Below are positions 8,531 to 64,000 of a stretch of DNA of 64,000 bases, in pieces (position 1 is the stretch's first letter; every line of letters starts with the position of its first letter). The stretch comes from Ichthyobacterium seriolicida (GTDB lineage: Bacteria > Bacteroidota > Bacteroidia > Flavobacteriales > Ichthyobacteriaceae), in assembly GCF_002369955.1 (NCBI RefSeq), contig NZ_AP014564.1, forward strand, positions 1,596,996-1,660,995, written 5' to 3'. Made by a program: the position numbers and the translations under genes. The notes beneath the pieces were generated by a model. It saw only the letters and a program-made list of their open reading frames with translations, did no database searches and was not told the DNA's origin.

Positions 8531-11500
8531 CTATTCTTTTATCAAAACTTTGATATTTTCCTTACTAAGGACATCTGATTTACTTAATACTCTAATTAAA
8601 ATATCTAATTTCTTTTGAGTACTAGAAAGCTTTTCCTTTGTAACAGAAATTTCTTTTTCATTAGCAGAAAGTTTTTCCTTTGTAACAGAAAGTTCTTTTT
8701 TGAGAAAAATATTTTCTTTCTTGATATCATTATTCTCCTTTTTAATAATGCCACTTTCTTTTTCTAAGCCCACAACACGATCATAAACTGCTTGAGTAGC
8801 TGAAATATTTAAAGTGGTAAGACCATCGTAATCTACTGAGCGTAAATCGTCTACCTCCTTACCATAGATGAAAACCTTATTTTTAGAATCTAAAACCTCT
8901 TCTGTTAAAAATGTATTTGAATCTATAACTCTCTTTACTTTTACAGATCTATCTCCATCATTTTCTATTATAATCTTAACAATATCTCCAATAGAAAAAT
9001 CATGAGCCTTGTTTGTTGTAATAGCACTTCCTTCATTTGAAGTTTTAACTGATTTAGCTAATTCATATACATTAGGGATAATACCTTTATTTATATTTAT
9101 AACCTGTGGCAGTATGTTTTCTACTTGCTGAGCTATTACCTTTTTAAATGGCATAACCCCGCTTTCTATACTGTCTATCATGGTATAATCTGTAATTTCT
9201 ATATTTAGAAGTTTCTTTAAATCTTCTCTTCTATCTGATACCCCCTTTATACTCTTGATACGTTTATCTGATGTAGCTAAAAATTTATCATGTGTTACAA
9301 TACTATATTTTGCAGACAGAGACATCTTCAGAGAGGTACTAGTCCTCGAACGCAATTTATAACTACTATAGGAATCTTCATCATCACTATCACTATCCTC
9401 ATCATCACTAGTAAAGGTGCTATCAAAATATATTCCACTCAAGCCCCCTAGCGAATAATCCTCTAAAATAACGTAACCTTTTAAAAATGTTTTTTTAGTC
9501 TCCTTATTGCCAATAGTTACAGTATTACTCCCATTTCCTACCATATTAGTCCCTATAACTATTTCGTTAGTACTCTTATTTTCTTCTGACGACATAGTAT
9601 TATTCCCTATGAAAATAGAACTATTTGATTCTGTAAGCTCCATGGACGGCAGCTTATTATATAAATATTTAGCGCCAGCATAATATCCTATAGATATATT
9701 ATCTCTTCCTCCAACCATGTTACTTAAAGAATATGAACCTACCGAAGTATTATTGGAGCCAGTACTATTCCTTTGGAGAGAACCCACACCAACTGAAGTA
9801 TTATACTCGCCAGTAGTATTTTTTAGGAGAGAAGATTCACCAACTGAAGTGTTATTACTTCCAGAGGTGACATCTTTTAGGGATTCATAACCAACAGCTG
9901 TGTTGCTACCTGAGCTAACTACGTTATTACCAGATCCTATGCCTAAAAAAATATTTTTTTCACCACTACCTCCACTAGTGCCATTACTACCCTTACCAGA
10001 CCATTTAGTTATAATATTATCGTTAGTATCTGTTTTTATAAGCGTATATGCTTTTTTTATTTTTTCATCTAGTTCCTTCCCCTGATTAGCCGATAAGGCC
10101 TTTGTAGCCTCAGTAGTGGTTAAATTATCTACAATATCAGATATATTTAATTTTTTTTTCTCTAGTTCCTTCCCCTGCTTAGCTGATAAGGCACTTGTGC
10201 TATCATCAGAATTTAAATTATCTTCAAGATTTACTGGCCCTGGAATACCTTGTTCTCCTTGTGGTCCTGGGGCTCCTGTAGCACCATCTTTACCAGCGAG
10301 GCCCGCTGGACCTGCTACTCCATCTCTACCATCTCTACCTGGCGCTCCATCTTCACCTTTTTCTCCTCTTGGTCCTGTTAGACCTGCTGCCCCTGCTGGA
10401 CCTATTTCACCTTGAAGCCCTCTTGGCCCTACTGGTCCTATTGACCCTTGTGGACCTACTGGTCCTTCTTTACCATCAGCACCTGCTGGGCCTGGCTTGC
10501 CATCTTCACCTTTGTCTCCTGCTGGGCCTGTTTCACCCCGAAGCCCTGTTGGGCCTGGAGGGCCTTGTTTTCCTTCTTTACCTGCCAGTCCATCTTTACC
10601 ATCAGTACCTTTTGGACCTTCTTTACCAGCAGGTCCTATCTCGCCTCGATCTCCTTTCTCTCCCTTTTCTGCTTTTTTGTCTATCATCTGCTTAAGCTGA
10701 TACCCTTGATGCGCTGATAAAACTTTTTTTTCATTATGAGCTGAAACATCTAGGTTGTTTACAACTTCTAGTTTCCCATCCTCTAATTTTTTAAATTTTT
10801 CTTCGTATTCTACTAATTTAGCACCCTGTTCTTTTAACTCTATCCTCTGAGCAGCTATATTAGCTCCTAAAGTAGTCTCCGCTGTATTTATCTTACCTGT
10901 TAACTCTGCTTTCTGTTTAGTTAACTCTGCCTTCTGTTTAGTTAACTCTGCCTTCTCTTCATTTAACTCTGCCTTCTGTTCATTTAACTCTGCCTTCTCT
11001 TCAGTTAACTCTTTCTCTTGTTTGTCTATTTTTTCACTTTGAATCTTTAGCCCCTCTTTCTGAGCGGTTAACTCCTTTTCCTGTTCAAATATCTTGGTTT
11101 CAGATTTATCTACCCTTTCATAAAGCTCCTTGCCTCTATCAGCTGATAAAACTTTACCTTTACCTCCATTAAAATTATCAGCAATATCTATTTTGTCTAA
11201 TTTTCTTTCTTCTAAATCTCTCCCTTTATTGGCTGATAGAGCAGCTGATACAGCTCTAGAACTCAAATTATCTATAACATCTATTTTTGGACTATCCGCT
11301 GCATAAAATGCATAAGGGACACTAAGTATTTGACTCTTTTTTATAAGAGCATTACTATAATTATTTTTGCCAGTCAGATCTATCTCCGATTTAATGTAAT
11401 ATGAATATTCAGACCATTCTAAATCAGATAATTTTGAACCTGAGAATCCTTGAGATCTAATACCTTCTCCTACCTTTAGAGTAGCTAGGCCATTCTTATC

Positions 11501-11725
11501 TGTTTTAACATTCCAATGAACTTCAGAGTATACAACATTTTCTATCTTTCCATTTAAAGAATATATAGAAATACGAATACTAACTGTAAATTCTTTTAAT
11601 AATTTATCATCTTTCCTAATCACTAACTGATAACTCAACTTATCAGGAAAATTATTAGAAAGAGAATCTATACTTAAAAATGAGAGAAATATAAATCCAA
11701 AATAAAAAACAATTCTTCTAGTCAT
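8531..11725 (-). CDS. Fibre gene A: secreted collagen-like protein with coiled coil, beta-roll head and S74 chaperone domain
   Basis: This 1064-residue member of the window's paralogous fibre family has a signal peptide (1-~22), then the N-domain (~28-145) ending [14 protein letters not shown] and LSADRG repeats follow, then a coiled coil (~205-335) with five perfect 7-residue QKAELT-type units, LSAHQG, and a collagen tract (~353-498, about 48 triplets). Two more LSAxQGKEL repeats precede a head of five 17-residue GxNTSVG units (~607-692). The S74 domain begins at the S-D-K-R-I-K motif (~818), and a C-terminal coiled coil ends ENIKVLIKE. The head is nearly identical to the first part of gene J's head in the other array. 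Function is inferred: a homotrimeric surface or secreted fibre. It lacks a type IX sorting domain. Confidence 0.85.
10898..11002 (-). repeat. 21-bp tandem repeat (5 units) in the coiled coil of gene A
   Basis: There are five head-to-tail 21-bp units, each coding seven residues of the form [EK][EQ]KAEL[NT]. One unit equals one coiled-coil heptad. The same array has 12 units in gene E and 2 in gene F, with the same flanking sequence. Confidence 0.9.
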
Positions 11726-11759
11726 AACTATTATATTAGTTGATATAACTGTATGCTCA

Positions 11760-11789
11760 CGAAGTTAAAGCTTTTTTAGAATATGCTAA
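11760..11789 (-). promoter_or_regulatory. Predicted promoter of fibre gene A (class i)
   Basis: On the minus strand, TTAG (11789-11786), an 18-bp spacer and TAACTTCG (11767-11760) resemble the Bacteroidota -33/-7 pattern (TTTG, TAnnTTTG). The -7 box lies 35 bp upstream of the ATG. The same layout precedes genes B, H, I and K. Confidence 0.55.
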
Positions 11790-11812
11790 CGTAGTAGTTA
11801 TATACTATAAAA

Positions 11813-11847
11813 GGTTCAGTAAAAAATTAATAGTGATTATTTTTACC
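11813..11847 (-). promoter_or_regulatory. Conserved 35-bp inverted-repeat block upstream of gene A
   Basis: The block reads GGTAAAAAT ... TTTTTTACTGAACC in gene direction, with a GTAAAAA / TTTTTAC stem and a loop of about 14 bases. It sits some 25 bp upstream of the -33 box and is conserved before genes A, B, H, I and K only. It may be an operator or an upstream terminator. Confidence 0.45.
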
Positions 11848-11884
11848 AAGTGACTTGTTAATAGGATCTTAATTTATCTTGAAC

Positions 11885-14800
11885 TTATTTTATCAAAACT
11901 TTGATATCTTCCTTACTAAGGACATCTGATTTACTTAATACTTTAATTAAAATATCTAATTTCTTTTGAGTACTAGAAAGTTTTTCCTCAATAGCAGAAA
12001 GTTTTTCCTCAGTAGCAGAAAGTTTTTCATTGGTAGTAGAAAGTTGTTTAGTAAGAATACTATTCTCTTTTTCTAAACCCACAACACGATCATAAACTGC
12101 TTGAGTAGCTGAAATGTTTAAAGTAGTAAGACCATCGTAATCTATTGAGCGTAAATCGTCTACCTCCTTACCGTAGATGAAAACCTTATTTTTAGAATCT
12201 AAAACCTCTTCTGTTAAAAATCTATTAGAATCTATAACTCTCTTTACTTTTACGTATCTCTCTCCATCATTTTCTATAATAACCTTAATGAGATCTCCAA
12301 CAGAAAAATCGTGAACCTTGTTTGTCGTGATAGTACTTCCTTCATTAGAAATGTTGATTGATTTAGCTAATTCATACACATTAGGGATAGTACCTTCATT
12401 TATATTTATGATCTCTGGAACTATACTTTCTACCTGCTGAGCTATTACTTTTTTAAATGGTCTAACGCCACTTTTTATACTATCTATCATCGTATAATCT
12501 GTAATTTCTATATCCAAGAGTTTCTTTAAATCTTCTCTTTTATCTGAGATACCTTTTATACTCTTGATACGTTTGTCTGATACAGCTAAAAATTTATTGT
12601 CTGTTAAAATAGATTCACCTGCATACAGAGAAACTTTAGTATCAATGAATTTGTATCTAGCTGTTTTTTTCAAATAATAATCATGATCATAATCAAAATA
12701 AGTTCCACTAAAACGATTGCTGGTTCCTCCATTGATATTCAACATTCCAATATTTTTTCGTATTGCTGAACTATTATTATTTATTAAAACTCTCCCCTTT
12801 AAGTATGTTTCTATAGTATTGTCATTCCCGATAAGTACTGTATTACTACCTTTACCTTTATTAGGTATGTCTGCATTAGATGCTCCAATAACTATCTCAT
12901 TAATAGATCTGTTGCCTTCTCCAGAACTTGATCCATGCCCTATAAAAATAGAGCGATTTGAATGCTTAACAAGAGCGGCTGCATTATACCCAATAGCTAC
13001 AGTATTAGATACTGTTGTAGTATTCAAAAATACATTAGAGCCTATACCTACATTACTATTAGAATTATCACCAATCTTAGATAAAATATTAGCCCCAATA
13101 ACTACATTATCACTCACCATAGCCCTAGTTCCTGAATTGGTACCTAAAAACATATTTCTATATCCTCTAGAGTTAGAAGCTACTTCATCACAATTACTTT
13201 TATTACCAGACCAACACGTTATAATATTACCATTCCTACGATTCATACCTCCTTCTACAAAAAGAAATGATTTTTTTATTTTGTCATCTAAAACCTTACC
13301 CTGTTTAGCTGATAAGGCACTTGTTGTATCCCCAGAAGTTAAATTATTTATAATTTTCTCTGGCCCTGGAGGACCTTGTGGACCTTTAGCTCCTGCTGGG
13401 CCTGGTAAACCTTGTGGACCTCTAGCGCCTGGGGCTCCTGCTGGACCCGCTGGGCCTGGTAAACCTGATTCACCATCCTTGCCATCTACACCATGATTAC
13501 CATCTGCACCTTTTGGTCCTGCTGGGCCTGGAGGCCCTTCCGCTCCTGTTTCACCTTTTGCTCCTGCTGGACCTGGAGGTCCTTGCGCTCCTGTTTCACC
13601 TTTTGCTCCTGCTAGACCTGGAGGACCTTGCTTGCCTTCTTTTCCATCTTTACCAGGAGGGCCTTCTGAACCTTGCATCCCTTGATCTCCTTTTTTCCCG
13701 TCAATACCATTTTTACCAGCAGGACCAGCTGGACCTACTGCCCCTGCAGCTCCTGGGGGGCCTGCCAGACCGATTGAGCCTGGTGCTCCATCTTCACCTT
13801 TTAACCCTTGCTCTCCTCTGTCTCCTTTTGGTCCTGGATTACCATCTTTACCATCAGTACCTTTTGGACCAGGAACTCCTTGAATACCTATGTCACCTCG
13901 TTTGCCATCTGGTCCTGCTGGACCTCTTTCACCTTGCTCTCCTTTTTCACCTTGTTTCCCTTGAGGTCCTGCTGGCCCTGCTGGTCCTGCTGGACCATCC
14001 TTGCCATCTCTACCAGCAAGGCCTGGATCACCATCTTTGCCCTTTTCGCCTCTGGTACCTTGAGGACCTTTTACCCCTGTGTATCCTCGAGGTCCTTGCG
14101 CTCCTGTTTCACCTTTTGCTCCTGCTGGACCTGGAGGACCTGGAGGACCTGGAGGACCTTGCTTGCCTTCTTTTCCATCTTTACCAGGAGGACCTTCTGA
14201 ACCTTGCATCCCTTGATCTCCTTTTTTCCCGTCAATACCATTTTTACCAGCAGGACCAGCTGGACCTACTGCCCCTGTAGCTCCTGGGGGCCCAGCGGGG
14301 CCTGCCAGACCGATTGGGCCTGGTGCTCCATCTTCACCTTTTAACCCTTGCTCTCCTCTGTCTCCTTTTGGTCCTGGATTACCATCTTTACCATCAGTAC
14401 CTTTTGGACCAGGAACTCCTTGAATACCTATGTCACCTCGTTTGCCATCTGGTCCTGCTGGACCTCTTTCACCTTGCTCTCCTTTTTCACCTTGTTCTCC
14501 ATCTTTACCAGGGGGGCCCGCTGAGCCTGTTTCACCTGGAATCCCTCGATCACCTTGTTTTCCTTGAGGCCCTGCTACACCTACTGGTCCTGTTTTACCA
14601 TTTGGTCCTGCTGGTCCTGCAGGGCCTGCAGGACCTATCTCGCCTCGATCTCCTTTCTCTCCCTTTTCTGCTTTTTTGTCGTCTATCATCTGCTTAAGCA
14701 GATATCCTTGATGCGCTGATAAAACTTTTTTAGGGCCATGAGTTGAAAGTGTCAAATCATTAATAACTTCTAACTCTCCATCCTTTAACTTTTTAATTTT

Positions 14801-15493
14801 TGTTTCTTGATCTGTTAATTTATTATCATGTTCAGTTAACTCCTTTTCCTGTTCTTTTATCTTGGTCTCAAATTTATTTACTCTTTCATAAAGTTCTTTT
14901 CCCTTTTTAGCTGATAAAACTTTTCCAACCTCTCCATCAAAATTATCAGCAATATCTATTTTGTCTAATTTTCTTTCTTCCAAATCTCTCCCTTTATTAG
15001 CTGATAGAGCAGATGATACAACTCTAGATCTCAAATTATCTATAACATTTGTTTTTGGGCTTTTTGCAGCATAAAATGCGTAAGGAACACTAAGTATTTC
15101 ACTCTTTTTTATAAGAGCATTACTATAATTATTTTTGCCAGTCAGATCTATCTCTGATTTAATGTAATATGAATACTCAGACCATGATAAATCAGACAAT
15201 TTTGAACCTGAGAATCCTTGAGATCTAATACCTTCTCCTACCTTTAGAGTAGCTAAGCCATTCTTATCTGTTTTAATATTCCAATGAACTTCAGAGTATA
15301 CAACATCTTCTATCTTTCCATTTAAAGAATATATAGAAATACGAATACTAACTGTAGATTCTCTTAATAGTTTATCATCTTTCCTAATCACTAACTGATA
15401 ACTCAACTTATTAGGAAAATTATTAGAAAGAGAATCTATACTTAAAAATGAGAGAAATATAAATCCAAAATAAAAAACAATTCTTATAGTCAT
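11885..15493 (-). CDS. Fibre gene B: long collagen-like secreted protein with S74 domain
   Basis: This 1202-residue family member has a signal peptide, an N-domain to VPYAFYAA (~139), two LSAxxG repeats, a short coiled coil (~205-262) and LSAHQG. A collagen tract of ~145 triplets follows (~276-712), then LSAKQG, a beta-roll-like head (about 745-900) with [22 protein letters not shown] and NTVLIGN motifs, the S74 domain from S-D-K-R-I-K (~973) and a C-terminal coiled coil ending KEDIKVLIK. Two near-identical collagen blocks (13621-13955 and 14152-14489) lie exactly 531 bp (59 x 9) apart, a product of in-register duplication. The head matches gene C. A trimeric secreted fibre is inferred. Confidence 0.86.
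13621..14489 (-). repeat. 531-bp-period direct repeat in the collagen tract of gene B
   Basis: Two long near-identical blocks start at 13621 and 14152 (same GAGGACCTTGCTTGCC start). The 531-bp spacing is 59 Gly-X-Y units, so both the reading frame and the triplet register are preserved. Confidence 0.8.
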
Positions 15494-15527
15494 AACTATT
15501 ACATTAGTCGATATAACTGTATGCTCA

Positions 15528-15615: not shown

Positions 15616-17685
15616 AAGTGACCTGCTAATAGGATCTTAATTTATCTTGAACTTATTTTATCAAAACTTTGGTGTCATCCTTATTGAGGATGTTTGATTT
15701 GTTTAGTAATTTAATTAAGTTATCTAACTTCTGTTTAGTAGAAGATAATTCTTTCTTGGTAGAAATAAGCTTTTCATTGGTAGTAGAAAGTTGTTTAGTA
15801 AGAATACTATTCTCTTTTTCTAAGCCCACAACACGATCATAAACAGCTTGAGTAGCTGAAATATTTAAAGTGGTAAGTCCATCGTAATCTACTGAGCGTA
15901 AATCGTCTACCTCCTTACCGTAGATGAAAACCTTATTCTTAGAATCTAAAACCTCTTCTGTTAAAAATCTATTAGAATCTATAACTCTCTTTACTTTTAC
16001 GTATCTCTCTCCATCATTCTCTATAATAACCTTAATGAGATCTCCAACAGAAAAATCGTGAACCTTGTTTGTCGTGATAGTACTTCCTTCATTAGAAATG
16101 CTGATTGATTTAGCTAATTCATACACATTAGGGATAGTACCTTTATTTATATTTATGACCTCTGGAACTATACTTTCTACCTGCTGAGCTATTACTTTTT
16201 TAAATGGCCTAACGCCACTTTCTATACTATCTATCATCGTATAATCTGTAATTTCTATATTCAAGAGTTTCTTTAAATCTTCTCTTTTATCTGAGATACC
16301 TTTTATACTCTTGATACGTTTGTCTGATACAGCTAAAAAACTTCCATCTGTTAAAATAGATTCACTTGCATACAGAGAAACTTTAGTATCAATAAATTTA
16401 CTTGTTTGAACCAAATAATATTTATGCTTAATGTTATTACTAAAATAAGTTCCACTAAAATGATTGCTGGTTCCTCCATAGATATTCAACATTCCAATAC
16501 TTTTTCGTGTTGCTGAATCACTATTATTTATTAAAACTCTCCCCTTTAAGTAAGTTACTTCAGTGTTGTCATTCCCAATAAGTACTGTATTATTACCTTT
16601 ACCTTTATTAAGTACATCTCCAGTAGATGCTTAACTATCTCATTAGAAGAACTACTGTTTTCTTTAGGAGCTGATCCATGCCCTATAAAAATAGAGCGAT
16701 TTAATTGATTAGCATAAGCGGCTGCAGTATGCCCAATAGCTACAGTATTAGATACCCTTGCAGCTGCCTGAAATACACGAGAGCCTATAGCTACATTGCT
16801 ATTAGAACCATTACTAATACTAGATAAAGTATTATCCCCAATAGCTACATTATGAGTCGTACTAAATTTACCGTCATTGCCTGAATTGATACCTAAAAAC
16901 ATATTTCTAGTTCCTATAGAATTAGAAACTATTTCATCATATCTATCTTTATTACCAGACCAACACGTTATAATATTACCATTACCATTACCATTACCCC
17001 CTTCTACAAAAAGACGTGATCTTTTTATATCGTCATTTAAAACCTTACCCTGTTTAGCTGATAAGGCACTTGTTGTATCCCCAGAAGTTAAATCATTTAT
17101 AATTTTCTCTGGCCCTGGAGCTCCTGCTGGACCCGCTGGGCCTGGAGGACCTTGTGGACCTTTAGCGCCTGGAGCTCCTGCTAGACCCGCTGGACCTGGT
17201 AAACCTTGTGGACCTGGTAAACCTTGTGGACCTGGTAAACCTGATTCACCATCCTTGCCATCTGCACCTTTTGGTCCTGCCAGGCCTGGATTACCTGGTA
17301 ACCCAGGTAATCCAGGTTCACCATCTTTACCTGCAGGACCTTGCTCTCCTTTTGGTCCTGGGTCTCCCTTTACTCCTTGAGGGCCTATCGCTCCTGCTGG
17401 GCCTGTCTCACCACGAAGCCCTTGTGGTCCTTGAATCCCTGCTGGACCTCTTTCTCCTCTTTCTCCATCTTTACCTGCAAGACCAGCTGGGCCTACTGGC
17501 CCTGGAATACCTTGTTCCCCTTTTGGCCCTGGGTCTCCTGGGTTACCATCTTTACCATCAGCACCTGGAAGGCCTTTATCACCTTGTGGCCCTTGAGGGC
17601 CTTTTTCACCTTTTTCACCTTTAGGCCCTGCTGGACCTGCTACACCTACTGGCCCTTGAGACCCTGCTGGACCTGCTGGACCCAT

Positions 17686-18990: not shown

Positions 18991-20135
18991 GGCTCCCGTT
19001 GGCCCTGATGGACCTGGATCACCTTTTGGTCCTGGGTCTCCTTTTGGTCCTTGAGCACCAACGTCTCCTTTTTCACCAGATGGACCTGCTGGACCTGTGT
19101 CTCCTTGCTCTCCTTTTGGTCCTTGAGGACCTGATGGTCCTGCTTCACCTTTTGCTCCTGAGTCTCCCTTTACTCCTTGAGGGCCTCTTTCTGCCTTTTT
19201 GTCTATCAATTTCTTGAGTTCATACCCTTGATGCGCTGATAAAACTTTTTTAGGGTCATGAGTGTCGGTGTTTAAATCATTAACAATATCAGATATACTT
19301 AATTTAGTATCTATTTCTGCCTTAAGGACTTTTCCTTGTGCTGCTGATAATACTTTTGTAGCATCATCAGTGGTTAAATTATTTATTATTTGATTATTAT
19401 CAATCTTGTTTTTTAACTCTGCCTTCTTAGCGGTTAACTCCTTTTCCTGTTTTTTTATCTTAGTCTCAGATTTATCTACCCTTTCATAAAGCTCCTTGCC
19501 TCTATCAGCTGATAAAACTTTACCTTTACCTCCATTAAAATTATCAGCAATATCTATTTTGTCTAATTTTCTTTCTTCTAAATCTCTCCCTTTATTAGCT
19601 GATAAAGCAGCTGATACAACTCTAGAACTCAAATTATCTATAACATTTGTTTTTGGGCTATCTGCTGCATAAAATGCATAAGGGACACTAAATAATTGAC
19701 TCTTTTTTATAAGAGCATTACTATAATTATTTTTGCCAGTCAAATCTAACTCTGATTTAATGTAATATGAATCTTCAGACCATGATAAATCAGACAATTT
19801 TGAATCTGAAAACCCTTGAGATCTAATACCTTCTCCTATATTTAGAGTAGCTAAACCATTTTTATCTGTTTTAACACTCCAATGAACTTCAGAGTATACA
19901 ACATCTTCTATCTTTCCATTTAAAGAATATATAGAAATACGAATACTAACTGTAGATTCTCTTAATAGTTTATCATCTTTCCTAATAACTAACTGATAAC
20001 TCAACTTATTAGGAAAGTTTTTAGAAATGGAATCTACACTCAGAAACAGCAGAAATATAAATCCAAAGTAAAACACAAGCCTTCTTTTCATGTTATCTAA
20101 AAATATTGTCAATAGATGCTACGGTAATAAAATTA

Positions 20136-52952: not shown

Positions 52953-55900
52953 ATGAATAGAAGAATTATTTTTTATTTTGGATTTATATTTCTCTCATTT
53001 CTAAGTTTAGATTCTGTTTCTAATAATTTTCCTGATAAGTTGAGTTATCAGTTTGTGATTAGGAAGGAAAATCAACTCTTAAAAGAGTCTACAGTTAGTA
53101 TTCGTATTTCTATATATTCTTTAAATGGAAATATAGAAGATGTTGTATACTCTGAAATTCATTGGAGTATTAAAACAGATAAAAATGGTTTAGCCTCTTT
53201 AAAAGTTGGAGAAGGGATTAAATCTGGAAATTTTGTTATGTCAAAATTATCTGATTTAGAATGGGCAAAAAACTCTTATTATATCAAATTTGAGATTGAT
53301 TTGGATAGCAGAAACAATTATGATAAAGCTCTTATAACAAAGAGTCAAATTCTCAGTGTCCCTTATGCATTTTATGCAGGGGATAGTCCAAAAATAACCG
53401 TTGTAGATAATCTGAGTTCTAGTTCTGTAACATCTGCTCTATCAGCCAATAAGGGAAGAGATTTAGAAAATAGAAAATTAGACAAAATAGATATTGCTGA
53501 TAATTTTAATGGAGGTGAAGGTAAAGTTTTATCAGCTAATAAGGGGAAAGAACTTTATGAAAGGGTAAATGAATATAAAAAGGATTTTTCTGAAAGGTTA
53601 ACTTTTCAGGATGAACAAATATCTAAACAAAAGGAAGATTTAGTTACTCAAAAAGAGAATATAGCTCAACAAAAGGAAGAGCTAGAAAGCGAGATAGCTG
53701 AGCAGGATAAAGTTCTAGAAAATCAGAAAGAGAGACAAAGTGAAACTATTTCTGAAATTGAAGAATTGAAGAAATCAAGATTACAAGTCATTGATGATCT
53801 GAGTATTTTGAGTCATGATGCTAAAAAAGTTTTATCAGCGCATCAAGGATATAAGCTTAAGCAGATGATAGACGCAAAGGAAGAAATAGGGCTAGTAGGG
53901 CCAGTAGGTCTGGCAGGAAAAAAAGGAGACAAAGGAGACAGAGGAGATCGAGGCCCAGCAGGACCAGTTGGTCCTACAGGAGCGCAAGGGCCACAAGGTG
54001 AAACAGGGACAACGGGAGCGCAAGGACCACAAGGTGAAACAGGGACAACAGGAGCGCAAGGACCACAAGGTGAAAGAGGGCTTCAAGGTCCAGCAGGACC
54101 AGATGGTAAAACAGGAACAGTAGGTGCTAATGGCGTTCCAGGGAAAGTAGGAGACACTGGACTAGCGGGAGCTGTTGGTGAGCAAGGGCCAAAAGGAGAC
54201 GATGGTAAAGATGGGCCAAAAGGAGACATGGGTCTAAAGGGTCCAGCAGGCGCAAAAGGCCCTGATGGTACTAAGGGCCTAAAGGGACCTAAAGGGGTAA
54301 AAGGAGACAAAGGTGAACAAGGTCCTGCTGGTAAAGATGGTCCTATAGGAGCGCAAGGACCAGTTGGTAAAACAGGAACAACGGGAGCGCAAGGACCACA
54401 AGGTGAAGATGGTCCTATAGGAGCGCAAGGACCACAAGGTGAAAGAGGACCTCAAGGTGAAAGAGGGCTTCAAGGTCCAGCAGGACCAGTTGGTAAAACA
54501 GGAACAGCAGGTGCTAATGGCGCTCCAGGGAAAGTAGGAGACTCTGGACCAGCGGGAGCTGTTGGTGTGCGAGGGCCAAAAGGAGACGATGGTAAAGATG
54601 GGCCAGAAGGAGACAGAGGTTTAGAGGGGCCAGCAGGCGCAAAAGGCCCTGATGGTGCTAAGGGCCTAAAGGGACCTAAAGGGGTAAAAGGAGACAAAGG
54701 TGAACAAGGTCCTGCTGGTAAAGATGGTGATCAAGGCCCAAAAGGGACGGATGGCGCTCCAGGTAAAGATGGTCCACGTGGTAAAAGAGGCCTACAAGGG
54801 CCAGAAGGAACACCAGGCAAACCAGGTAACCCTGGTAAAAAAGGAGAAAGAGGTCCAAAAGGACCAAAAGGACCTCAAGGGCTTCATGGTAAACAAGGTC
54901 TAGCAGGCGCTAGAGGACAGCGAGGTGAAACAGGAGCAGTAGGGCCAAAAGGAAAAGATGGTCTACGAGGGCCAGTAGGTCTGGCAGGAGCTCAAGGTGA
55001 AACAGGAGCAGTAGGGCCAAAAGGTCTAGAAGGAGAACAAGGGCCAGAAGGTCTAAAAGGAGAGCAAGGGCCAGAAGGTCTAAAAGGAGAGCAAGGCGAT
55101 ACAGGACCTGATGGTAGAAATGGTATAGATGGCGCCACAGGTACTCCAGGACCACTGGGACCAGCAGGAGACAAAGGTAAACAAGGCCCTATGGGACCAA
55201 CAGGTATTCGAGGAAACACAGGCCCACAAGGGCCTCCAGGGCCAGTGAAAATTAAAGATGAGTTAAATTCTGATGACAATACAAGTGCCTTATCAGCTAA
55301 ACAGGGTAAGGTTTTAGCTGGGATTATAAAAGGTCTATTTATAAAAACAACGACTGGTGAAAGTATTATAACACTTTCTGATACAGATGATCCTAATTCT
55401 CTAGAATCTATTCAAGGAGGTTCAAATAACATGTTTTTAGGTTTTGATTCAGGCAGGAAAGGAAGTGGAAATATAGGTTTAGGAGAAGGAGCTTTGCGTA
55501 ATATTACTGAGAGTGCGGTTGACAATATTTTTATTGGTCATGCGGCTGGTGAAAATAATGCAGGGTCAAAGAATATAGGTATAGGTAATGGTTCACTTAA
55601 AAATAATTATAATGGAAGTGAGACTGTTGCTATCGGTTATATGGCTCCTTATATAGCAAAACCCTCAAGTTCAATAAGATACTCTTATAATAAGAGTATC
55701 TATATAGGTAATTTATGTGAATCTGGAACTACTAGTTCTAGTACTAACGAAATAGTTATTGGATCTAAGGCAACAGGTATGGGTACTGATAGAGTAGTGT
55801 TAGGAAATGATAGGACTAGTAAAACATATTTAAAGGGTACAGTTTTTTTATCAAAACCTCTTGAGAATACCCTTTTAAGAGGAGATAGAAGAATGTTCAT

Positions 55901-56708
55901 ATATGACCCTAAAAATAATTGGTTTCATCGTAGTTATAATTACAAATTTACCTGGGAAGGTGACCCAATTCATGAGTGGATTTCTTTATATGCTGATGGT
56001 TCTATTCTAACAAAATCTGGGTTTATAGCCGTATCAGATAAGCGTATTAAGAGTATAAAAGGTATATCAGACAGAAAAGAAGATTTAAAGAAACTTCTGA
56101 ATATAGAGATTACAGATTATACTATGATAGACAGCATAGAAAGCGGCGTTAGGCCATTTAAAAAAGTAATAGCTCAGCAAGTAGAAAGCATACTGCCACA
56201 GGTTATAAATATAAATAAAGGTATTATCCCTAATGTATATGAATTAGCTAAATCAGTTAAAATTTCTAATGAAGGAAGTGCTTTTACAACAAACAAGGCT
56301 CATGATTTTTCTATTGGAGATATTGTTAAGATTATAATAGAAAATGAAGGAACCAAAGAGGTAAAAGTAAAAGCTGTTATAGATCCTAATACGTTCTTAA
56401 TAGAAGAGGTTTTAGATTCTAATGATAAGGTTTTTATTTATGGTAAAGAAGTAGACAACATGCGATCAGTAGATTACGATGGTTTTACCACTTTAAATAT
56501 TTCAGCTACCCAAGCAATTTATGAAGAGCTTGTTTCTACTAAAAAAAAACTTTCTACTACTGAGCAAAAGCTTTCTACTAATGAAAAAGAACTTTCTGTT
56601 GCTAAAGAAAAGCTTTCTAATACTGAAAATAAATTAGATACTCTAATAAAGGCATTAAGTAAATCAAATACCCTTAGTAAGGAAGATATAAAAGTTTTGA
56701 TAAAGTAA
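52953..56708 (+). CDS. Fibre gene H: long collagen-like fibre with S74 domain
   Basis: This 1251-residue family member has a signal peptide and an N-domain to VPYAFYAG, with diverged opening residues ([12 protein letters not shown]). LSANKG is repeated twice, then a coiled coil (~205-290), LSAHQG, a collagen tract of ~150 triplets (~313-764), LSAKQG and a head related to gene G ([37 protein letters not shown]). The S74 domain starts at S-D-K-R-I-K (~1027) and a C-terminal coil follows. The collagen tract contains a 387-bp (43 x 9) tandem duplication. From the S74 start to the stop the DNA is nearly identical to gene G, whereas the N-domain differs, again suggesting segmental exchange. Confidence 0.86.
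54060..54740 (+). repeat. 387-bp-period direct repeat in the collagen tract of gene H
   Basis: CTTCAAGGTCCAGCAGGACC begins at 54081 and 54468. The two copies code parallel GANGxPGKVGD ... [16 protein letters not shown] stretches. The period equals 43 triplet units. Confidence 0.82.
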
Positions 56709-57102: not shown

Positions 57103-59133
57103 ATGAATAGAAGAATTGTTTTTTATTTTGGATTTATATTTCTCTCATTTCTAAGTTTAGATTCTGTTTCTAATAATTTTCCTGATAAGTTGAGTTATCA
57201 GTTAGTGATTAGGAAAGATGATAAATTATTAAGAGAAGCTACAGTTAGTATTCGCATTTCTATATATTCTTTAAATGGAAAGATAGAAAATGTTGTATAC
57301 TCTGAAGCTCATTTTAATCTTAAAACAGATAAGAACGGCTTAGCTTCTCTGAAAATAGGAGAAGGGATTAGAGCTAAAGGATTTTCGGATTTAAGTTTAT
57401 CTAGTTTAGAATGGTCAAAAAACTCTTATTACATCAAATCAGAGATTGATTTGTCTGGCAAAAACAATTATGACAAAGCTCTTGTTAATAAAAGTGAAAT
57501 GCTAAGTGTCCCTTATGCGTTTTATGCAGCAGATGCTCCAAAAGCAATTGTTATAAACAATTTAGAATCTAACTCTATAGCAATTCCTCTATCAGCTAAT
57601 CAAGGGAGAATTTTAAAGGAGATGATAGAAAAAAAAGATAAAGGAGACACTGGCCCTGCTGGCCCTGCTGGACCTCGTGGGTCAAGAGGGGCAACAGGGC
57701 TACCAGGTGCAGCAGGTGCAAAAGGTGAAACAGGTGCAGCAGGGCCTCGAGGTGAAGCAGGGCCAAAAGGTAACGATGGTGAACGAGGCCCTATAGGGGA
57801 AACAGGTCCTCCAGGACCAACAGGGCCAGAAGGAAAGCGAGGCCCAGCAGGTAAAAATGGTGTAGATGGCAAGGATGGTGCTCCAGGAGCAGCAGGCCCA
57901 GCAGGAAAAGAAGGGCCAGCAGGAGCAACAGGTGAACAAGGAGTAGCAGGGCCACAAGGTCCTCCAGGGCCAGAAAAAATTATTGATAATTTAGATTCTG
58001 ATGAAACAACAAGTGCCTTATCAGCTAAGCAGGGTAAGGTTTTAGCTGAGATGATAAAAAGTAAATCACCATTTATAAAAACAGATACTGGGGAAAATAT
58101 CATAACGTTCTCTGATGAAGAGGAGAAAAGTAAATCAAGTGGCACAAAAAATATGCTTTTAGGTATTGGCTCCAAGTCTTCTAGCGAATCACCTAGCAAT
58201 GAGATAGCTATAGGAAGTGACGCTCAAGGTAAGGGGTCTAATACAGTAGTTTTAGGAAACGACATAACTAAAATAACATATTTAAAAGGTCAAGTTGTTC
58301 TAGAAGGATATATTACAGAGTCAAAAAATGGAACATATTTTGACAGCAAAACAACAAGCAAGGCGACGTTTTTCGTGGAAAAGTCTAGAGCCTTAGATGG
58401 GACTAGTAGCGCAATATCGCATGACATTTCTCTGTATGCTAAGCATAGTATTGCAACAGAGAAAAAATTTTTAGCTACATCAGATAAACGTGTTAAGAGT
58501 ATAAAGGGGATCTCAGATAAAAGAGAAGATTTAAAAAAGCTCCTAAATATAGAGATTACAGATTACACTATGATAGACAGTATAGAAAGCGGGGTTAAAC
58601 CGTTTAAAAAGGTAATAGCTCAGCAAATAGAAAATATAGTTCCAGAAGTTATAGATATAAATAAAGGTATTATCCCTAATGTGTATGAATTAGCTAAATC
58701 AGTTAAGGTTTCCATTGAAGGAAGTGCTATTACAACAAACAAGGCTCATGATTTTTCTATTGGAGATATTGTTAAGATTATAATAGAAAATGAAGGAACC
58801 AAAGAGGTAAAAGTAAAAGCTGTTATAGGTCCTAATACGTTTTTAATAGAAGAAGTTTTAGATTCTAATAAGAAGGTTTTTATTTATGGTAAAAAAGTAG
58901 ACGACATGCGATCAGTAGATTACGATGGTCTTACCACTTTAAATATTTCAGCTACTCAAGCAGTTTACGAAGAACTTATTTCTACTAAGAAAAAACTTTC
59001 TGATAATAAAAAAGAACTTTCTGTTACTAAGGAAAAGCTTTCTAGTACTCAAAAGAAATTAGATACTCTAATAAAGGCATTAAGTAAATCAAATGCTCTT
59101 AGCAAGGAAGATATAAAAGTTTTGATAAAGTAA
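57103..59133 (+). CDS. Fibre gene I: smallest member, no central coiled coil
   Basis: This 676-residue family member has a signal peptide, an N-domain to VPYAFYAA and a single LSANQG repeat that runs directly into the collagen tract (~180-291, 37 triplets: [16 protein letters not shown]...). LSAKQG, a short head ([31 protein letters not shown]), the S74 domain from S-D-K-R-V-K (~459) and a C-terminal coil ending KEDIKVLIK follow. It lacks the second LSAxxG repeat and the coiled-coil stalk of its paralogues, so it shows the minimal architecture of the family. The head and LSAKQG segment are close to genes E and F. Confidence 0.86.
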
Positions 59134-59254: not shown

Positions 59255-62200
59255 ATGAATAGAAAAATTGCTTTTTACTTTGGATTTATATTTTTCTCAT
59301 TTTTAAGTATCTATTCTTTTTCTAATAATTTTCCTGATAAATTGAGTTATCAGTTAGTGATTAGGAAAGATGATAAATTATTAAAAGAATCTACAGTTAG
59401 TATTCGTATTTCTATATATTCTTTAAATGGAAAGATAGAAGATGTTGTATACTCTGAAATTCATTGGAGTGTTAAAACAGATAAAAATGGTTTATCTACT
59501 CTAGATATAGGAGAAGGGATTAGATCTCAAGCATTCTCAGGTTCAAAATTGTCTGACTTAGAATGGTCAAAAAACTCTTATTACATTAAATCAGAGATAG
59601 ATCTAACTGGCAAAAATAATTATAGTAATGCTCTTATAAAAAAGAGTCAAATTCTTAGTGTCCCTTATGCATTTTATGCAGCAGATAGTCCAAAAATAGA
59701 TATTCAAAATCATTTAAGTTCTAGAAGTGCAACCAATGCGTTATCGGCTAATCAAGGAAGAATTTTAGAAGAAAGAAAATTAGACAAAATAGATATTGCT
59801 GATAATTTTAATGGAGAGGTTGGTAAAGTTTTATCAGCTAAAAAGGGGAAAGAACTTTATGAAAGAGTAAATGAACATGAAACCAAGATAGAAAAACACA
59901 AAGAAGAATTAACTCAACAGGAGAAAGATCTAACAGAAAAGATAGCTGCTCAGAAGAAAGAGTTAACAAAAAAGATAGATGATGAGAAGAAAGAATTAGA
60001 AAAAAAGATAGAAACCGAAAAGAAGTATTTAGAAAATAAGATAGACGATAATAAAACAGCCTTAACAACTCAGGGCGACAAGATATCTGCTCAGGAAACC
60101 AAGATAGATGCTCAGAAGGTAGCTTTAGAAGGCAAGATATTTGCTCAGAAGACAGCTTTAGAAAATACGATAGCTGAAGAGAAGAAAACTTTAGAAGCTA
60201 AGATAGATGCTCAGGGGACTAAATTAGGAACCCACGAAACAATAATTAAAAAGTTAGATACAGATTTAGATGCTCAGAAGACAGATTTAGATGCTCAAAG
60301 AAAAAAGATAGAAACCCAGCAAAAAGCTTTAGAAGCTAAGATAGATGCTCAGGGGACTAAATTAGGAACCCACGAAACAATAATTAAAAAGTTAGATACA
60401 GATTTAGATGCTCAGAAGACAGATTTAGATGCTCAAAGAAAAAAGATAGAAAACCAGGAAAAAGAAATTAAAGATTTAAAGGATGGAGAGTTACAAGTCA
60501 TTAATGATCTAAAGACTTCAACTCATGAAGTTAAAAAAGTTTTATCAGCGTATCAAGGAAAAGTCCTTAAGGATATGATAGAAGCTCATAAGGCAGATTT
60601 AACAGAAAAGATAGATGATAATAAGAAAGTGTTAACTAAACAGAAAGAAAAGGTAGATGAACATGAAGGTAAATTAGCAAAATACGAAGAAAAACTTAAA
60701 AATTTAGAGAAGGAGAAACTAGAAGGTGTAAACACACTAGACGTTTCAACTCATGATGCTAAAAAAGTTTTATCAGCGCATCAAGGACATAAACTTAATG
60801 AAAAAATAGCCAAAAAATTAAATATATCTGATATTGTAAATGATTTAAACACAGACTCTCATAACCCTAAAAAAGTTTTAGCAGCGCATCAAGGATATCA
60901 GCTTAATCAAATGATAAAAACTCAGGAGACAGCTTTAGAAGTTAAGATAGAAAATCAGAAGACAGCCTTAGAAAACAAGATATCTGCTCAGGAAACCAAG
61001 ATAACTAATCAGGATACTAAATTAGGAACCCACGAAAAAAAAATTACAGAGTTAGAGAATGGGCAACTACAAGTTGTAAATGACCTAGAACTTTCAGATC
61101 ATGATGAAAAAAAAGTTTTATCAGCGTATCAAGGATATCAGCTTAAGCAGATGATAGACAAAAAAGCAGAAAAGGGAGAGAAAGGAGATCAAGGCGAGAT
61201 AGGACCTGCTGGTAAAGAAGGCCCCGCTGGAACCCCAGGCGCTACAGGGGCAGTAGGTCTAACTGGTCCCTCTGGTAAAAATGGTACTAACGGGAAAGAC
61301 GGCATCCAAGGTCCTCGAGGAGCAGATGGAGCAAGAGGCCCAGCAGGTAAAAATGGTAAAGATGGCAAGGATGGTTCCCCAGGCCCCCCTGGGGAACAAG
61401 GTCCTCCAGGGCCAGCAGAAATTATTGATAATTTAGAATCTGATAAGACAACAAGTGCCTTATCAGCTAAGCAGGGGAAAATACTAGAGGTCAAAAAATT
61501 AAATAAATCTGATATAGAAGATAATTTAACCAGTAATGATGCTAATAAGCCCTTATCAGCTAATCAGGGGAAGGAACTAGAGAACAAAAAAATAGATAAA
61601 ACTGATATTGCAACTAATTTAACCACTGATGATGATAAAAAGGTCTTATCAGCTAAGCAGGGGAAAATACTAGAGGTCAAAAAAATAGACAAAACTGATA
61701 TTGTAAATAATTTAACCAGTGATGCTACTAATAAGCCCTTATCGGCTAAGCAGGGAAAAATACTAGATAAAAAAATAAAAGAAGCACATACGCTTATAAA
61801 AACAGATACTCACAATAATATTATAACTAAATGGTCTGGTAAGGGTAGTGATGGAACTAGTGGAGGTAGTGGTCAAAAAAATACTTTTTTAGGTATAAGA
61901 TCTGGTAACGAAGTAGTTAGCTCAGGTAGCAACACAGCTGTTGGTTATGAATCCCTAAAAGATGTCACCTCTGGAAGTAATAACACTTCAGTTGGTGAAT
62001 CTTCTCTCCTAAAAAATACTACTGGGATGCATAATACTTCAATTGGCAATAGTTCTCTAAAAGAGAATACTAGTGGCTCATATAACACTTCTTTTGGCTC
62101 ATTCTCTCTTAGAAATAATACTGCCGATTTTAACACTTCATTTGGCTATAATTCTCTCCAAAATAATACTAAAGGCAAATATAATACTTCTGTTGGTGCG

Positions 62201-63505
62201 AGTTCTCTCCAAAACAATAATAATGGCTCACATAATACTTCAATTGGCATAAGTTCTCTCCAAAGCAATAATAGTGGCTCCTATAATACTTCAGTTGGCA
62301 CGAATTCTCTCCAAAAGAATACTGAGGGCTCCTTTAATACTTCAGTTGGCATGAATTCTCTCCAAAAGAATACTAAGGGCAAACAAAATACTTCTGTTGG
62401 CTCTTTTTCTCTCCAAGTAAATACTGAGGGCTCCTTTAATATTTCTGTTGGCACGAATTCTCTCCGAGATAATACTACTGGCTCCTGTAATACTTCAGTT
62501 GGCACGAATTCTCTCCGATATAATACTACTGGCTCCTATAATACTTTGATAGGGACACGTTCTTTATATAACATGGTTAAAGGAAATAATAATATATCTA
62601 TAGGATGTCATGCTGGCAATGAAGATAATTCAAAACATAAATTCACGGAATCAAATAATTCTATTTTTATAGGGAATAATACTAAGGCGTTAGCAAATAA
62701 GAGTACTAACGAGATAGTTATAGGGCATAGTGCGGTAGGAAATGGAAATAATACTGTAACCATTGGTAATAGTATTACTAAAACTTACTTAGGAGGAACA
62801 GTTCATGCAAATGGCGTACAACTCACTTCTGATAAACGTATCAAGAGCATAATAGGCATATCAGATAAAGAATCAGACCTTAAAAAACTTTTAGATATAG
62901 AAATCACGGATTACACTATGAGAGATACTAATAAACTGGGTAATCAGCATTTTAAGAAGGTAATAGCTCAGCAGATAGAAAGTATAGTTCCAAATATTGT
63001 ACAAAAGAATAGTGGTATAATTCCTAGTGTCTACGAATCAACTAAATCAATAGAGACTACAAATGATACTACATCAATTACTACAAAAAAGGCACATGGA
63101 TTTTCTAAGGGTGATACAGTAAAACTAATTTTGGATGATGGCAAAGAGATTTTTGTCAAAGTAAAAGAGATAAAAAGCACCAATACTTTTGTAGTAAAGT
63201 TAGGAAATGAAATATCTCCAAATAGCGTGTTTGTATACGGTAAGGAGGTAGACGATTTACGATCAGTAGATTACGATGGTCTTACCACTTTAAATATTTC
63301 AGCTACTCAAGCAATTTATGAAGAGCTTGTTTCTACTAAGAAAAAACTTTCTGCCAATAAAAAAGAACTTTCTGCTAATAAAAAAGAACTTTCTGTTACT
63401 AAGGAAAAGCTTTCTAGTACTCAAAAGAAATTAGATACTCTAATAAAGGCATTAAGTAAATCAAATGCTCTTAGCAAAGAAGATATAAAAGTTTTGATAA
63501 AATAA
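59255..63505 (+). CDS. Fibre gene J: coiled-coil stalk, short collagen, long beta-roll head, S74 domain
   Basis: This 1416-residue member is the most elaborate. After the signal peptide and N-domain (to VPYAFYAA) it has about 400 residues of coiled coil (~200-620), interrupted by LSAYQG, LSAHQG and LAAHQG repeats and containing a 46-residue tandem duplication. A short collagen tract (~638-719, 27 triplets) is followed by four LSAxQGK repeats in a row. The head has about 14 units of 17 residues (~890-1125, GxxNTSVGxxSLxxNT), which resembles YadA-type beta rolls. The S74 domain begins at S-D-K-R-I-K (~1191) and differs most from its paralogues ([39 protein letters not shown]), looking closest to the ancestral form. 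The end, [20 protein letters not shown] plus coil, is standard. Confidence 0.86.
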   Translation: MNRKIAFYFGFIFFSFLSIYSFSNNFPDKLSYQLVIRKDDKLLKESTVSIRISIYSLNGKIEDVVYSEIHWSVKTDKNGLSTLDIGEGIRSQAFSGSKLSDLEWSKNSYYIKSEIDLTGKNNYSNALIKKSQILSVPYAFYAADSPKIDIQNHLSSRSATNALSANQGRILEERKLDKIDIADNFNGEVGKVLSAKKGKELYERVNEHETKIEKHKEELTQQEKDLTEKIAAQKKELTKKIDDEKKELEKKIETEKKYLENKIDDNKTALTTQGDKISAQETKIDAQKVALEGKIFAQKTALENTIAEEKKTLEAKIDAQGTKLGTHETIIKKLDTDLDAQKTDLDAQRKKIETQQKALEAKIDAQGTKLGTHETIIKKLDTDLDAQKTDLDAQRKKIENQEKEIKDLKDGELQVINDLKTSTHEVKKVLSAYQGKVLKDMIEAHKADLTEKIDDNKKVLTKQKEKVDEHEGKLAKYEEKLKNLEKEKLEGVNTLDVSTHDAKKVLSAHQGHKLNEKIAKKLNISDIVNDLNTDSHNPKKVLAAHQGYQLNQMIKTQETALEVKIENQKTALENKISAQETKITNQDTKLGTHEKKITELENGQLQVVNDLELSDHDEKKVLSAYQGYQLKQMIDKKAEKGEKGDQGEIGPAGKEGPAGTPGATGAVGLTGPSGKNGTNGKDGIQGPRGADGARGPAGKNGKDGKDGSPGPPGEQGPPGPAEIIDNLESDKTTSALSAKQGKILEVKKLNKSDIEDNLTSNDANKPLSANQGKELENKKIDKTDIATNLTTDDDKKVLSAKQGKILEVKKIDKTDIVNNLTSDATNKPLSAKQGKILDKKIKEAHTLIKTDTHNNIITKWSGKGSDGTSGGSGQKNTFLGIRSGNEVVSSGSNTAVGYESLKDVTSGSNNTSVGESSLLKNTTGMHNTSIGNSSLKENTSGSYNTSFGSFSLRNNTADFNTSFGYNSLQNNTKGKYNTSVGASSLQNNNNGSHNTSIGISSLQSNNSGSYNTSVGTNSLQKNTEGSFNTSVGMNSLQKNTKGKQNTSVGSFSLQVNTEGSFNISVGTNSLRDNTTGSCNTSVGTNSLRYNTTGSYNTLIGTRSLYNMVKGNNNISIGCHAGNEDNSKHKFTESNNSIFIGNNTKALANKSTNEIVIGHSAVGNGNNTVTIGNSITKTYLGGTVHANGVQLTSDKRIKSIIGISDKESDLKKLLDIEITDYTMRDTNKLGNQHFKKVIAQQIESIVPNIVQKNSGIIPSVYESTKSIETTNDTTSITTKKAHGFSKGDTVKLILDDGKEIFVKVKEIKSTNTFVVKLGNEISPNSVFVYGKEVDDLRSVDYDGLTTLNISATQAIYEELVSTKKKLSANKKELSANKKELSVTKEKLSSTQKKLDTLIKALSKSNALSKEDIKVLIK
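60191..60452 (+). repeat. 138-bp tandem duplication in the coiled coil of gene J
   Basis: TTAGAAGCTAAGATAGATGC starts at 60191 and again at 60329, with near-complete identity for ~125 bases. Each copy codes 46 residues beginning LEAKIDAQGTKLGTHETIIK. Unlike the collagen repeats this is not a whole number of heptads. Confidence 0.88.
61925..62632 (+). repeat. 51-bp degenerate repeat (about 14 units) forming the head of gene J
   Basis: About 14 units of 17 residues follow the pattern GxxNTSVGxxSLxxNT. Middle units such as GSYNTSVGTNSLQKNT are nearly identical to each other, indicating recent expansion. Gene A has only five such units, and its first two are nearly identical to those of J. Confidence 0.9.
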
Positions 63506-63532: not shown

Positions 63533-63742
63533 CCTGGATTATTCATGGTTTGTATTTCAATTTAACTATAAAGTGTTATTTTTAAAGGGTTTCAACCAAA
63601 AATAACCACTTTAGATATAGCCCAAAAATGAGGAATAAAAATATACCATTTATAACTCTGAGTTCATCAATGACTACTTATAAATACTGGATAAAGCGAT
63701 AGATTATATCCAAAAAATTCATACGACTATGAATAATCTGGG
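63533..63742. mobile_element. 210-bp MITE-like element, copy 2
   Basis: This is a second copy of the element at 56736-56945, also exactly 210 bp and flanked by TTAA (63529-63532 and 63743-63746). Its left end is mutated (CCTGGATTATTCATGG). It sits at the same relative position, between the conserved 3' flank of one fibre gene and the 35-bp block of the next, so it may have spread with the duplicated gene rather than by a new transposition. Confidence 0.8.
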
Positions 63743-63756
63743 TTAACAAGTCACTT

Positions 63757-63791
63757 GGTAAAAATAATCACCATCAAATTTTTACTAAACC
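63757..63791 (+). promoter_or_regulatory. Conserved 35-bp inverted-repeat block upstream of gene K
   Basis: GGTAAAAAT ... ATTTTTACTAAACC, identical in layout to the block before gene I. Confidence 0.45.
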
Positions 63792-63814
63792 TTTTATTTT
63801 ATAGAACTACTATG

Positions 63815-63844
63815 TTAGCATATTCTAAAAAAGCTTTAATTTCG
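63815..63844 (+). promoter_or_regulatory. Predicted promoter of fibre gene K (class i)
   Basis: TTAG (63815-63818), an 18-bp spacer and TAATTTCG (63837-63844) lie 55 bp before the ATG, as in gene I. Confidence 0.55.
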
Positions 63845-63899
63845 TGAGCATATAGTTGTATCAACTAATACAATAGTTATATCAACTAATATGATAGTT

Positions 63900-64000
63900 A
63901 TGACTAGAAGAATTGTTTTTTATTTTGGATTTATATTTCTCTCATTTTTAAGTATCTATTCTTTTTCTAAGAATTTTCCTGATAAGTTGAGTTATCAGTT
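63900..64000 (+). CDS. Fibre gene K (5' end only, runs off the right edge)
   Basis: The ATG at 63900 opens a frame beginning [16 protein letters not shown], then [16 protein letters not shown], which is the signal peptide and first strand of the family N-domain. The 34 visible codons match genes A, G and I almost residue for residue. Everything downstream is outside the window, so length, collagen content and intactness are unknown. It shows that the right-hand array continues. Confidence 0.85.
   Translation, partial: MTRRIVFYFGFIFLSFLSIYSFSKNFPDKLSYQ

Follow-up and report, generated by a model that had tools for sequence, protein, structure and literature searches.

Genome-wide family of predicted MAT-like, collagen-stalked fibre proteins with a variable tip in the fish pathogen Ichthyobacterium seriolicida

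The closest described counterparts of the proteins considered here are the MAT proteins of the predatory bacterium Bdellovibrio bacteriovorus. As described in PMC10769870, 21 MAT proteins share a β domain of ~130 aa located after the signal peptide, and 13 of them end in an S74 domain with the motif SDxxxK. Self-cleavage has been shown for Bd3182, at the S74 serine; the tested MATs are found on the predator surface, one of them binds glycans, and their N-domain is presumed in that paper to lie at the cell surface. A comparable set of modular proteins is encoded within a stretch of 64,000 nucleotides of Ichthyobacterium seriolicida DNA (contig NZ_AP014564.1, positions 1,596,996 to 1,660,995; hereafter the window), in which two divergent arrays of one gene family flank housekeeping genes. 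I. seriolicida, the only species recognised in its family, causes haemolytic jaundice of farmed yellowtail; the complete genome of JBKA-6T is a single chromosome of 1,921,407 bp, for which gliding and type IX secretion genes have been reported (PMC5331501). The whole text of that genome paper contains no mention of the gene family, and the literature on the species, on Bacteroidota/Flavobacterium S74, collagen or tail-fibre proteins and on expanded collagen-like families yielded no description of it, as judged by titles and abstracts.

Large families of collagen adhesins are already known in parasites. For Pasteuria ramosa, dozens of collagen-like genes, 36–45 per genome, are reported (PMC13233619), as is host-genotype-specific attachment mediated by the C-terminus of Pcl7 (PMC10987987). 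Unlike the proteins described here, those of Pasteuria are spore proteins of the Bacillota, many of them in triplets, and the available parts of the two papers mention neither S74 nor a MAT-like N-domain. Legionella Lcl, as presented in PMC11162425, is a trimeric “lollipop” composed of an N-terminal anchor region, a collagen stalk and a C-terminal binding domain. It differs from the I. seriolicida proteins in both terminal domains and in its export by a type II secretion system; the NCBIfam Lcl matches obtained in this study lay mostly on the collagen tract, far below the cut-off. The chaperones of endosialidase, the T5 fibre and MYRF (S74, ICA) share the predicted fold, the Ser-Lys spacing and a C-terminal coil with the proteins studied, which differ from them by a β insert of ~70 residues within the chaperone, a bacterial context and a signal-peptide-like start.

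What is new in I. seriolicida is the combination of such a family with a MAT-like base, a chaperone predicted to be self-cleaving, and tip variation concentrated just upstream of the predicted cut. It is probable that these genes encode secreted, self-trimerising, MAT-like adhesive fibres with a collagen stalk and a diversified tip, serving host adhesion and/or forming an antigenic repertoire.

A first-pass annotation, made from the sequence of the window alone, had described eleven paralogues of collagen/tail-fibre type in two inverted arrays filling about 36 of the 64 kb. The arrays were confirmed at 8531–24990 (minus strand; genes A, B, C and E) and 43493–63505 (plus strand; genes F–K), together ~36.5 kb (the letter D is unused). 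They contain ten genes, nine intact and one (C) frame-broken, followed by the start of an eleventh (L), cut by the window edge; the number eleven is thus valid if C, present as two open reading frames (ORFs), is counted as one gene and L is included. Members of the family also occur outside the window. Searches with profiles of the window copies detected 32 N-domains and 32 C-terminal modules in 14 stretches plus the window, so homologues are numerous. These 32 loci occupy 138,868 bp, or 7.2% of the genome, where spans are taken as open frames, one insertion sequence (IS) and one remnant are included, and the N- and C-terminal pieces of broken loci are paired by adjacency. A whole-genome N-domain search gave 37 places, namely these 32 and, around 454 kb and 566 kb, five short fragments. 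The fragments (genome positions 566379–566734 and 454332–454636), some of them with stops, are regarded as remnants of further family copies.

Both ends lie in one open frame in 23 of the 32 loci, and nine are interrupted (the breaks were inspected in five of these, and the N/C pairing in all nine is inferred). One copy (L003 8161–9725; genome ~274160–275724) is interrupted by two overlapping minus-strand transposase-like frames, ~1.6 kb in length, judged by eye to be IS-like. By their C-terminal sequences, the copies fall into 13 of collagen type (L among them, although it has no long perfect Gly-X-Y tract), 16 of another type (hereafter other-type) and three intermediate ones located at 897–909 kb. 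Most other-type copies are not collagen-like: K and a copy at 454–459 kb carry collagen, while the remaining ones are mostly long LSA-repeat proteins without it, one having a 60-residue run (at 1450 kb).

The order of modules is (i) a signal-peptide-like start, judged by eye, (ii) an N-domain, (iii) coil/LSA repeats, (iv) often a Gly-X-Y tract, (v) a head, (vi) the tip and (vii) S74 with its insert and a terminal coil. The Pfam scan covered seven ORFs of the window (A, B, C in its two parts, F, J and K); genes E, G, H and I were identified with profiles built from the window copies, and a six-frame search placed S74 over the cut-off at all four. The collagen module proposed in the first-pass annotation was recovered as PF01391 in all six scanned ORFs carrying that part (E 6e-11 to 4e-111), and Phage_fiber_rpt was likewise detected in 6/6 (E 3e-23 to 4e-66); the LSA repeats correspond to PF22337. 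In contrast to what had been proposed, no Pfam YadA match was found among 13 own ORFs scanned. Each of the 11 intact copies measured contains a single uninterrupted Gly-X-Y tract of 81–711 residues; with a collagen rise of 0.286 nm per residue, this gives a predicted stalk of ~23–203 nm. The domain CBM_5_12 exceeds its cut-off within two of six other family copies scanned (L006 7127–11023, E 5e-7; L011 227–5374, E 2e-11) and is weak in three of the remaining four. Matches to NCBIfam Scl/Lcl models, to unrelated enzymes and to coiled-coil Pfam families were discounted as products of low complexity or repeats.

The N-domain (~130 aa, ending near VPYAFYA) appears to relate the family to the MAT proteins. 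Every one of the 32 N-domains gives a match to profile NF053851 (Bdello_MAT_N; E≤0.01, lowest value 1.3e-9), none of them over its cut-off. In a genome search the same profile gave 27 own places at E≤0.001, of which 0 exceeded the 60-bit cut-off, with approximately the first half of the profile covered. The N-domain of another member of the order (G023) matches positions 3–159 of 162 (E 2.8e-12, 46.8 bits), and this match over nearly the whole profile supports homology of the full domain. As in Bdellovibrio, where 21 proteins are described (PMC10769870) as compared to 32 loci here, the proteins form a large mosaic paralogue set with a signal peptide (here signal-peptide-like), a β N-domain, a fibre and S74 with SDxxxK. 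They differ in the collagen stalk (the word “collagen” is absent from the main text of PMC10769870), in the S74 insert and in belonging to an animal pathogen. The MAT capping-loop motif, under a strict reading of the printed pattern, occurs in 0/32 own and 0/47 related ORFs; the family is therefore termed MAT-like only and, judging from sequence, is not filed as Bdellovibrio MAT.

The predicted N-domain structure consists of β strands (pLDDT 78.4). No fold relative was found by Foldseek at E≤0.001; the best Z score was 7.3, below the level that reaches beyond a common sandwich, and the adhesin ester-bond domains and secretion pilotins in the fold lists were not accepted as relatives. A PDB sequence search returned none for the N-domain and none for the head of K. 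Among other genomes of the order the N-domain is common (98/295, E≤1e-5; this survey, like those of the C-terminal module below, scores presence per genome, not copy number, as at most 13 candidates per genome were scored here and at most 6 there). One member of the order with a 1.5 Mb genome (G198) has 12 N-domain matches, the next highest number among the other genomes listed being 6. In three genomes of the order without an S74 match (G035 C2 and C6, G019 C7, G006 C2), open frames combine the N-domain with collagen, a combination that exists also without the chaperone.

The first-pass annotation had also predicted an S74 domain. Its Pfam match is marginal: Peptidase_S74 (PF13884) scores 18.7–24.7 bits in 6/6 window ORFs carrying it, one of them over the cut-off of 22, and a six-frame search marked 29 genome places over the cut-off, five of these only in conjunction with frame neighbours. 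Of 39 further relatives sampled, seven have any PF13884 match, with at most 6 places per genome. The assignment is backed by the catalytic motif and the predicted fold. Ser and Lys(+5) of the SDxxxK dyad are invariant in 32/32 copies, with the spacing reported (PMC8326128) for S587/K592 of MYRF and S911/K916 of endoNF. A monomer model of the C-terminal part, which ends in S74 and the coil, was built on J with a 49-sequence alignment (mean pLDDT 75.5; 10-residue means 95–97 in the insert and 80–92 in the coil). Its best Foldseek matches are 7dc3 (MYRF, E 1.7e-5) and 3gw6 (endosialidase chaperone, E 2.4e-4), whose chains occupy the first nine rows. VIA-align gave Z 9.0 for 7dc3 (rmsd 3.5, 122 aligned residues, model range 109–312) and Z 8.1 for 3gw6 (rmsd 5.0, 127 aligned, range 107–304). 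Matches confined to the insert (ubiquitin E1 enzymes; Z 8.0–8.5) are tied with both, so that the chaperone is assigned from the Foldseek result, the sequence and the catalytic motif in combination. In a PDB sequence search with the C-terminal profile, three matches were obtained, of which only 6f45 (long tail fibre distal subunit, E 1e-4) is convincing.

An alternative is that the genes encode tail fibres of a prophage, a tailocin or an extracellular contractile injection system (eCIS). The module types of 4/4 proteins scanned do match phage fibre families in PHROGs, and S74 genes are reported in some eCIS operons (PMC8213781). However, the proteins have signal-peptide-like starts and a cellular N-domain, and no phage or eCIS gene was found by Pfam among the 19 neighbouring window ORFs of at least 150 aa, a scan in which smaller ORFs fell outside and the eCIS search did not extend to the rest of the genome. 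The earlier statement that no phage structural, lysis or integrase gene lies nearby therefore holds for these ORFs. Moreover, 0 of 70 candidate stretches in viral contigs were confirmed as relatives, and tblastn with the J N-domain and the J head-to-end piece gave no match in 50,697 phage records. We consider it very improbable that the products are tail fibres of this kind.

The C-terminal module with its insert was instead found at 39 loci in genome contigs, 34 of which bear Bacteroidota names; the other five come from metagenome-assembled genomes (MAGs) labelled Proteobacteria, Gammaproteobacteria, Akkermansiaceae (two loci) and SAR324, in which binning may be faulty. The suggestion that parts were borrowed from, or shared with, phages is consequently acceptable as regards module types, but “borrowed” is imprecise, because the C-terminal relatives derive from bacterial records and none was confirmed in the viral or phage collections. 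Three of the 39 loci (L038, L041 and L047) combine all three modules (N-domain, collagen, S74) within a single open frame, as in I. seriolicida, but they come from MAGs and L038 contains YadA_head and L047 LVIVD repeats. The module is rare: a C-terminal profile (A1, built from 30/32 C-termini, a truncated and a split copy being left out) detected it in 3/394 other genomes of the order, two of them with internal stops, and in 7/394 other genomes of a phylum sample, one with an internal stop.

Comparison of the two ends of each protein pointed to exchange of modules (the N and C trees cover 26/32 loci). The N-domains of K and of the 454–459 kb copy have mean identities of 0.83 and 0.84 to the collagen type vs 0.40 to the other type, whereas their C-terminal modules are closer to the other type (0.75 and 0.65) than to the collagen type (0.58 and 0.57). 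By sequence identity, both copies are module swaps in which a collagen-type N-domain is combined with a C-terminal module of the other type. The longest exact DNA tract shared by family members measures 586 bp, for copies ~50 kb apart, and one of 236 bp is common to the two window arrays (genes A and F).

The greatest variation was observed in the tip, defined as the 60 residues before the catalytic Ser, with positions anchored on that residue. In the 13 collagen-type copies, mean column identity is 0.54–0.65 at −90..−61, falls to 0.13–0.25 at −60..−21, recovers to 0.47–0.55 at −20..−1 and reaches 0.72–0.95 over the first 60 residues from Ser. The control, 15 of the 16 other-type copies, is conserved over the same segment (0.71–0.76 at −60..−21) and has 0.42–0.49 at −100..−61; the three 897–909 kb copies belong to neither group. 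A low stretch bounded on both sides by more conserved sequence is therefore particular to the collagen type. Since cleavage at S74 would place this segment at the outermost end of the fibre, a role in recognition or as an antigen is the natural inference.

We tentatively propose that the products are MAT-like self-cleaving trimeric fibres, a vertebrate-pathogen counterpart of the Bdellovibrio prey-recognition fibres, in which diversification affects the segment exposed by chaperone release and the copies constitute both an adhesin set and an antigen repertoire. The signal peptide would direct export from the cytoplasm, the β N-domain of ~130 aa would remain at the cell as a base, and the coiled-coil/LSA repeats together with the Gly-X-Y triple helix would form a stalk of gene-specific length, followed by the β head. 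The C-terminal S74 chaperone and coil would unite three chains. After correct folding, the Ser-Lys dyad would cut before the Ser of SDxxxK and the chaperone would be released, so that the final ~60 residues would form the distal tip. The paralogues may thereby present different tips on a common chassis, a repertoire that would address host ligands and/or provide antigenic diversity.

Several observations weigh against this proposal, in the first place those concerning the tip itself. The fall in identity upstream of S74 is in part general, as it is also seen in other Bacteroidota relatives: nine paralogues in L022, L032 and L036 have identities of 0.22–0.42 over the 100 residues before Ser and 0.60–0.81 after it, and 45 C-termini from other loci 0.10–0.31 and 0.34–0.67, respectively. 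Other-type copies have a low stretch of their own (0.40 at −20..−1). In favour of the proposal, the median dN/dS over 78 pairs is 1.02 for the tip as against 0.12 for S74 and 0.27 for the insert, with values >1 in 42, 1 and 1 pairs, respectively; here the tip boundaries of A and v391 lay too far upstream and took in conserved head sequence, and the fixed-distance identities are preferred. In 11 chosen pairs (one of intermediate type), tip dN is likewise high, 0.17–0.82 compared to 0.01–0.08 for S74, but tip dN/dS is >1 in five pairs and below 1 in six. Tip dS is higher than S74 dS in 8/11 of these pairs, an indication of some segment replacement. The tips align poorly, and in the model most tip residues have a pLDDT below 50; a dN/dS close to 1 is thus as compatible with relaxed constraint as with diversifying selection. 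The tip thus evolves fast at the protein level, with positive selection, relaxed constraint and segment replacement all candidate causes.

Further difficulties concern export and the state of the genes. No outer-membrane export route was recognised for the fibres: sorting domains of the type IX secretion system (T9SS) TIGR04183 and TIGR04131 were found at 1 and 6 genome places, 0 of them within the 32 family spans, no Cys is present in the first 40 residues of 31/32 N-terminal segments as cut (one segment is without its start), and Pfam scans of the 13 own ORFs revealed no YadA anchor barrel as expected of a type Vc autotransporter. The S74 core of the C-terminal model is moderately confident (10-residue pLDDT means 57–91). 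The nine interrupted loci indicate that part of the family may be decaying, or that the 454 plus Illumina assembly contains errors there. Finally, reviews describe I. seriolicida as nearly clonal (PMC11429256), and variation between strains may consequently be low.

These data bear on the possibility that the fibres are structural components (a matrix, gliding or biofilm scaffold), the tip varying by drift in a weakly constrained segment rich in loops and the copies arising by tandem duplication and gene conversion. A tip dN/dS of about 1, not clearly above it, and the number of interrupted loci would be expected in this case; the long exact tracts between distant copies suggest conversion or recent duplication, and relatives elsewhere are also variable upstream of S74. 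Large expansions of collagen genes are also reported for a free-living Thermoactinomyces (PMC13233619). On the other hand, the variable segment has more conserved flanks and is conserved over the same positions in other-type copies, the majority of copies retain both ends in one open frame, and some contain carbohydrate-binding modules. A structural role of this kind is considered unlikely, though not negligible.

The expression signals bear on a further alternative, in which the main purpose of the repertoire would be to vary the antigens exposed to fish antibodies, by recombinational switching between copies, and not adhesion. Module exchange and the long identical tracts are in line with this, and survivors reportedly display strong killing mediated by antibodies (PMC11429256). 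However, the populations are described as clonal in the same source. In addition, a site resembling TTAG...TAnnTTnG, promoter-like and of the Bacteroidota type, begins 64–85 bases before the start codon of 13/15 collagen-type genes (the pattern was loosened after inspection of the alignment, and shuffles match in 300 of 3000). These sites suggest separate transcription, with the copies expressed in place. Antigenic variation as the main function is accordingly considered improbable, albeit worth bearing in mind, and the adhesive MAT-like fibre, with an antigenic role in addition or as an alternative, is preferred. Overall, the interpretation given in the first-pass annotation is partly supported. 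None of the computational analyses made refuted it, with collagen and S74 recovered by profile or fold and no prophage seen around the genes; a homotrimer, a surface location and adhesion are predictions.

The positions of the family genes in the window are presented in the table. The Pfam names of the 19 neighbouring ORFs are ftsW, murD, mraY, murE, a PBP, mraW, miaA, cmk, tilS, nqrA-F, a T9SS plug protein, pyruvate carboxylase, an HHH_3 protein and a Big_5 protein. The mur/fts cluster is located to the left of the arrays, whereas the region between them contains housekeeping and envelope genes, including nqrA-F, tilS, cmk, miaA and the pyruvate carboxylase gene. The type 9 secretion plug protein (T9SS_plug_1st, E 7e-39) is also encoded there, at 38472–39683.

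Table. Family genes of the window (window positions; the tip is the 60 residues before the S74 Ser).
Gene	Position	Strand	Length (aa)	Start and N-domain	Collagen	Tip	S74 Ser (residue)	Remarks
A	8531..11725	-	1064	11300-11725	10232-10663	9272-9451	819	S74, insert and coil 8534-9271
B	11885..15493	-	1202	15068-15493	13358-14662	12581-12760	972	
C	15653..20112	-						one reading-frame break, in head; 5′ part 16555-20112 (aligned start 20091); 3′ part 15653-16492 with S74 and coil
E	20806..24990	-	1394	24565-24990	21985-24117	21514-21693	1160	collagen of 711 aa, longest tract in window
F	43493..46225	+	910 (from aligned start)		44681-45040	45395-45574	695	listed ORF start 43472
G	46398..48923	+	841		47397-47648	48006-48185	597	
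H	49049..52786	+	1245		49982-51349	51932-52111	1022	
I	52953..56708	+	1251		53889-55247	55854-56033	1028	
J	57103..59133	+	676		57643-57975	58300-58479	460	shortest intact gene in window; source of C-terminal model
K	59255..63505	+	1416		61175-61417		1192	chimera: N-domain collagen-type, C-terminal module of other type
L (start)	63900..64000	+						continues past window (L014; frame stays open up to genome position 1663060); no long perfect Gly-X-Y tract

If the proposed interpretation is correct, the family would provide candidate surface adhesins and antigens for a neglected but economically important fish pathogen. It would also link the MAT fibres of predatory bacteria to the Bacteroidota and, with a single autoprocessing chaperone displaying a variety of tips, would amount to a natural experiment.

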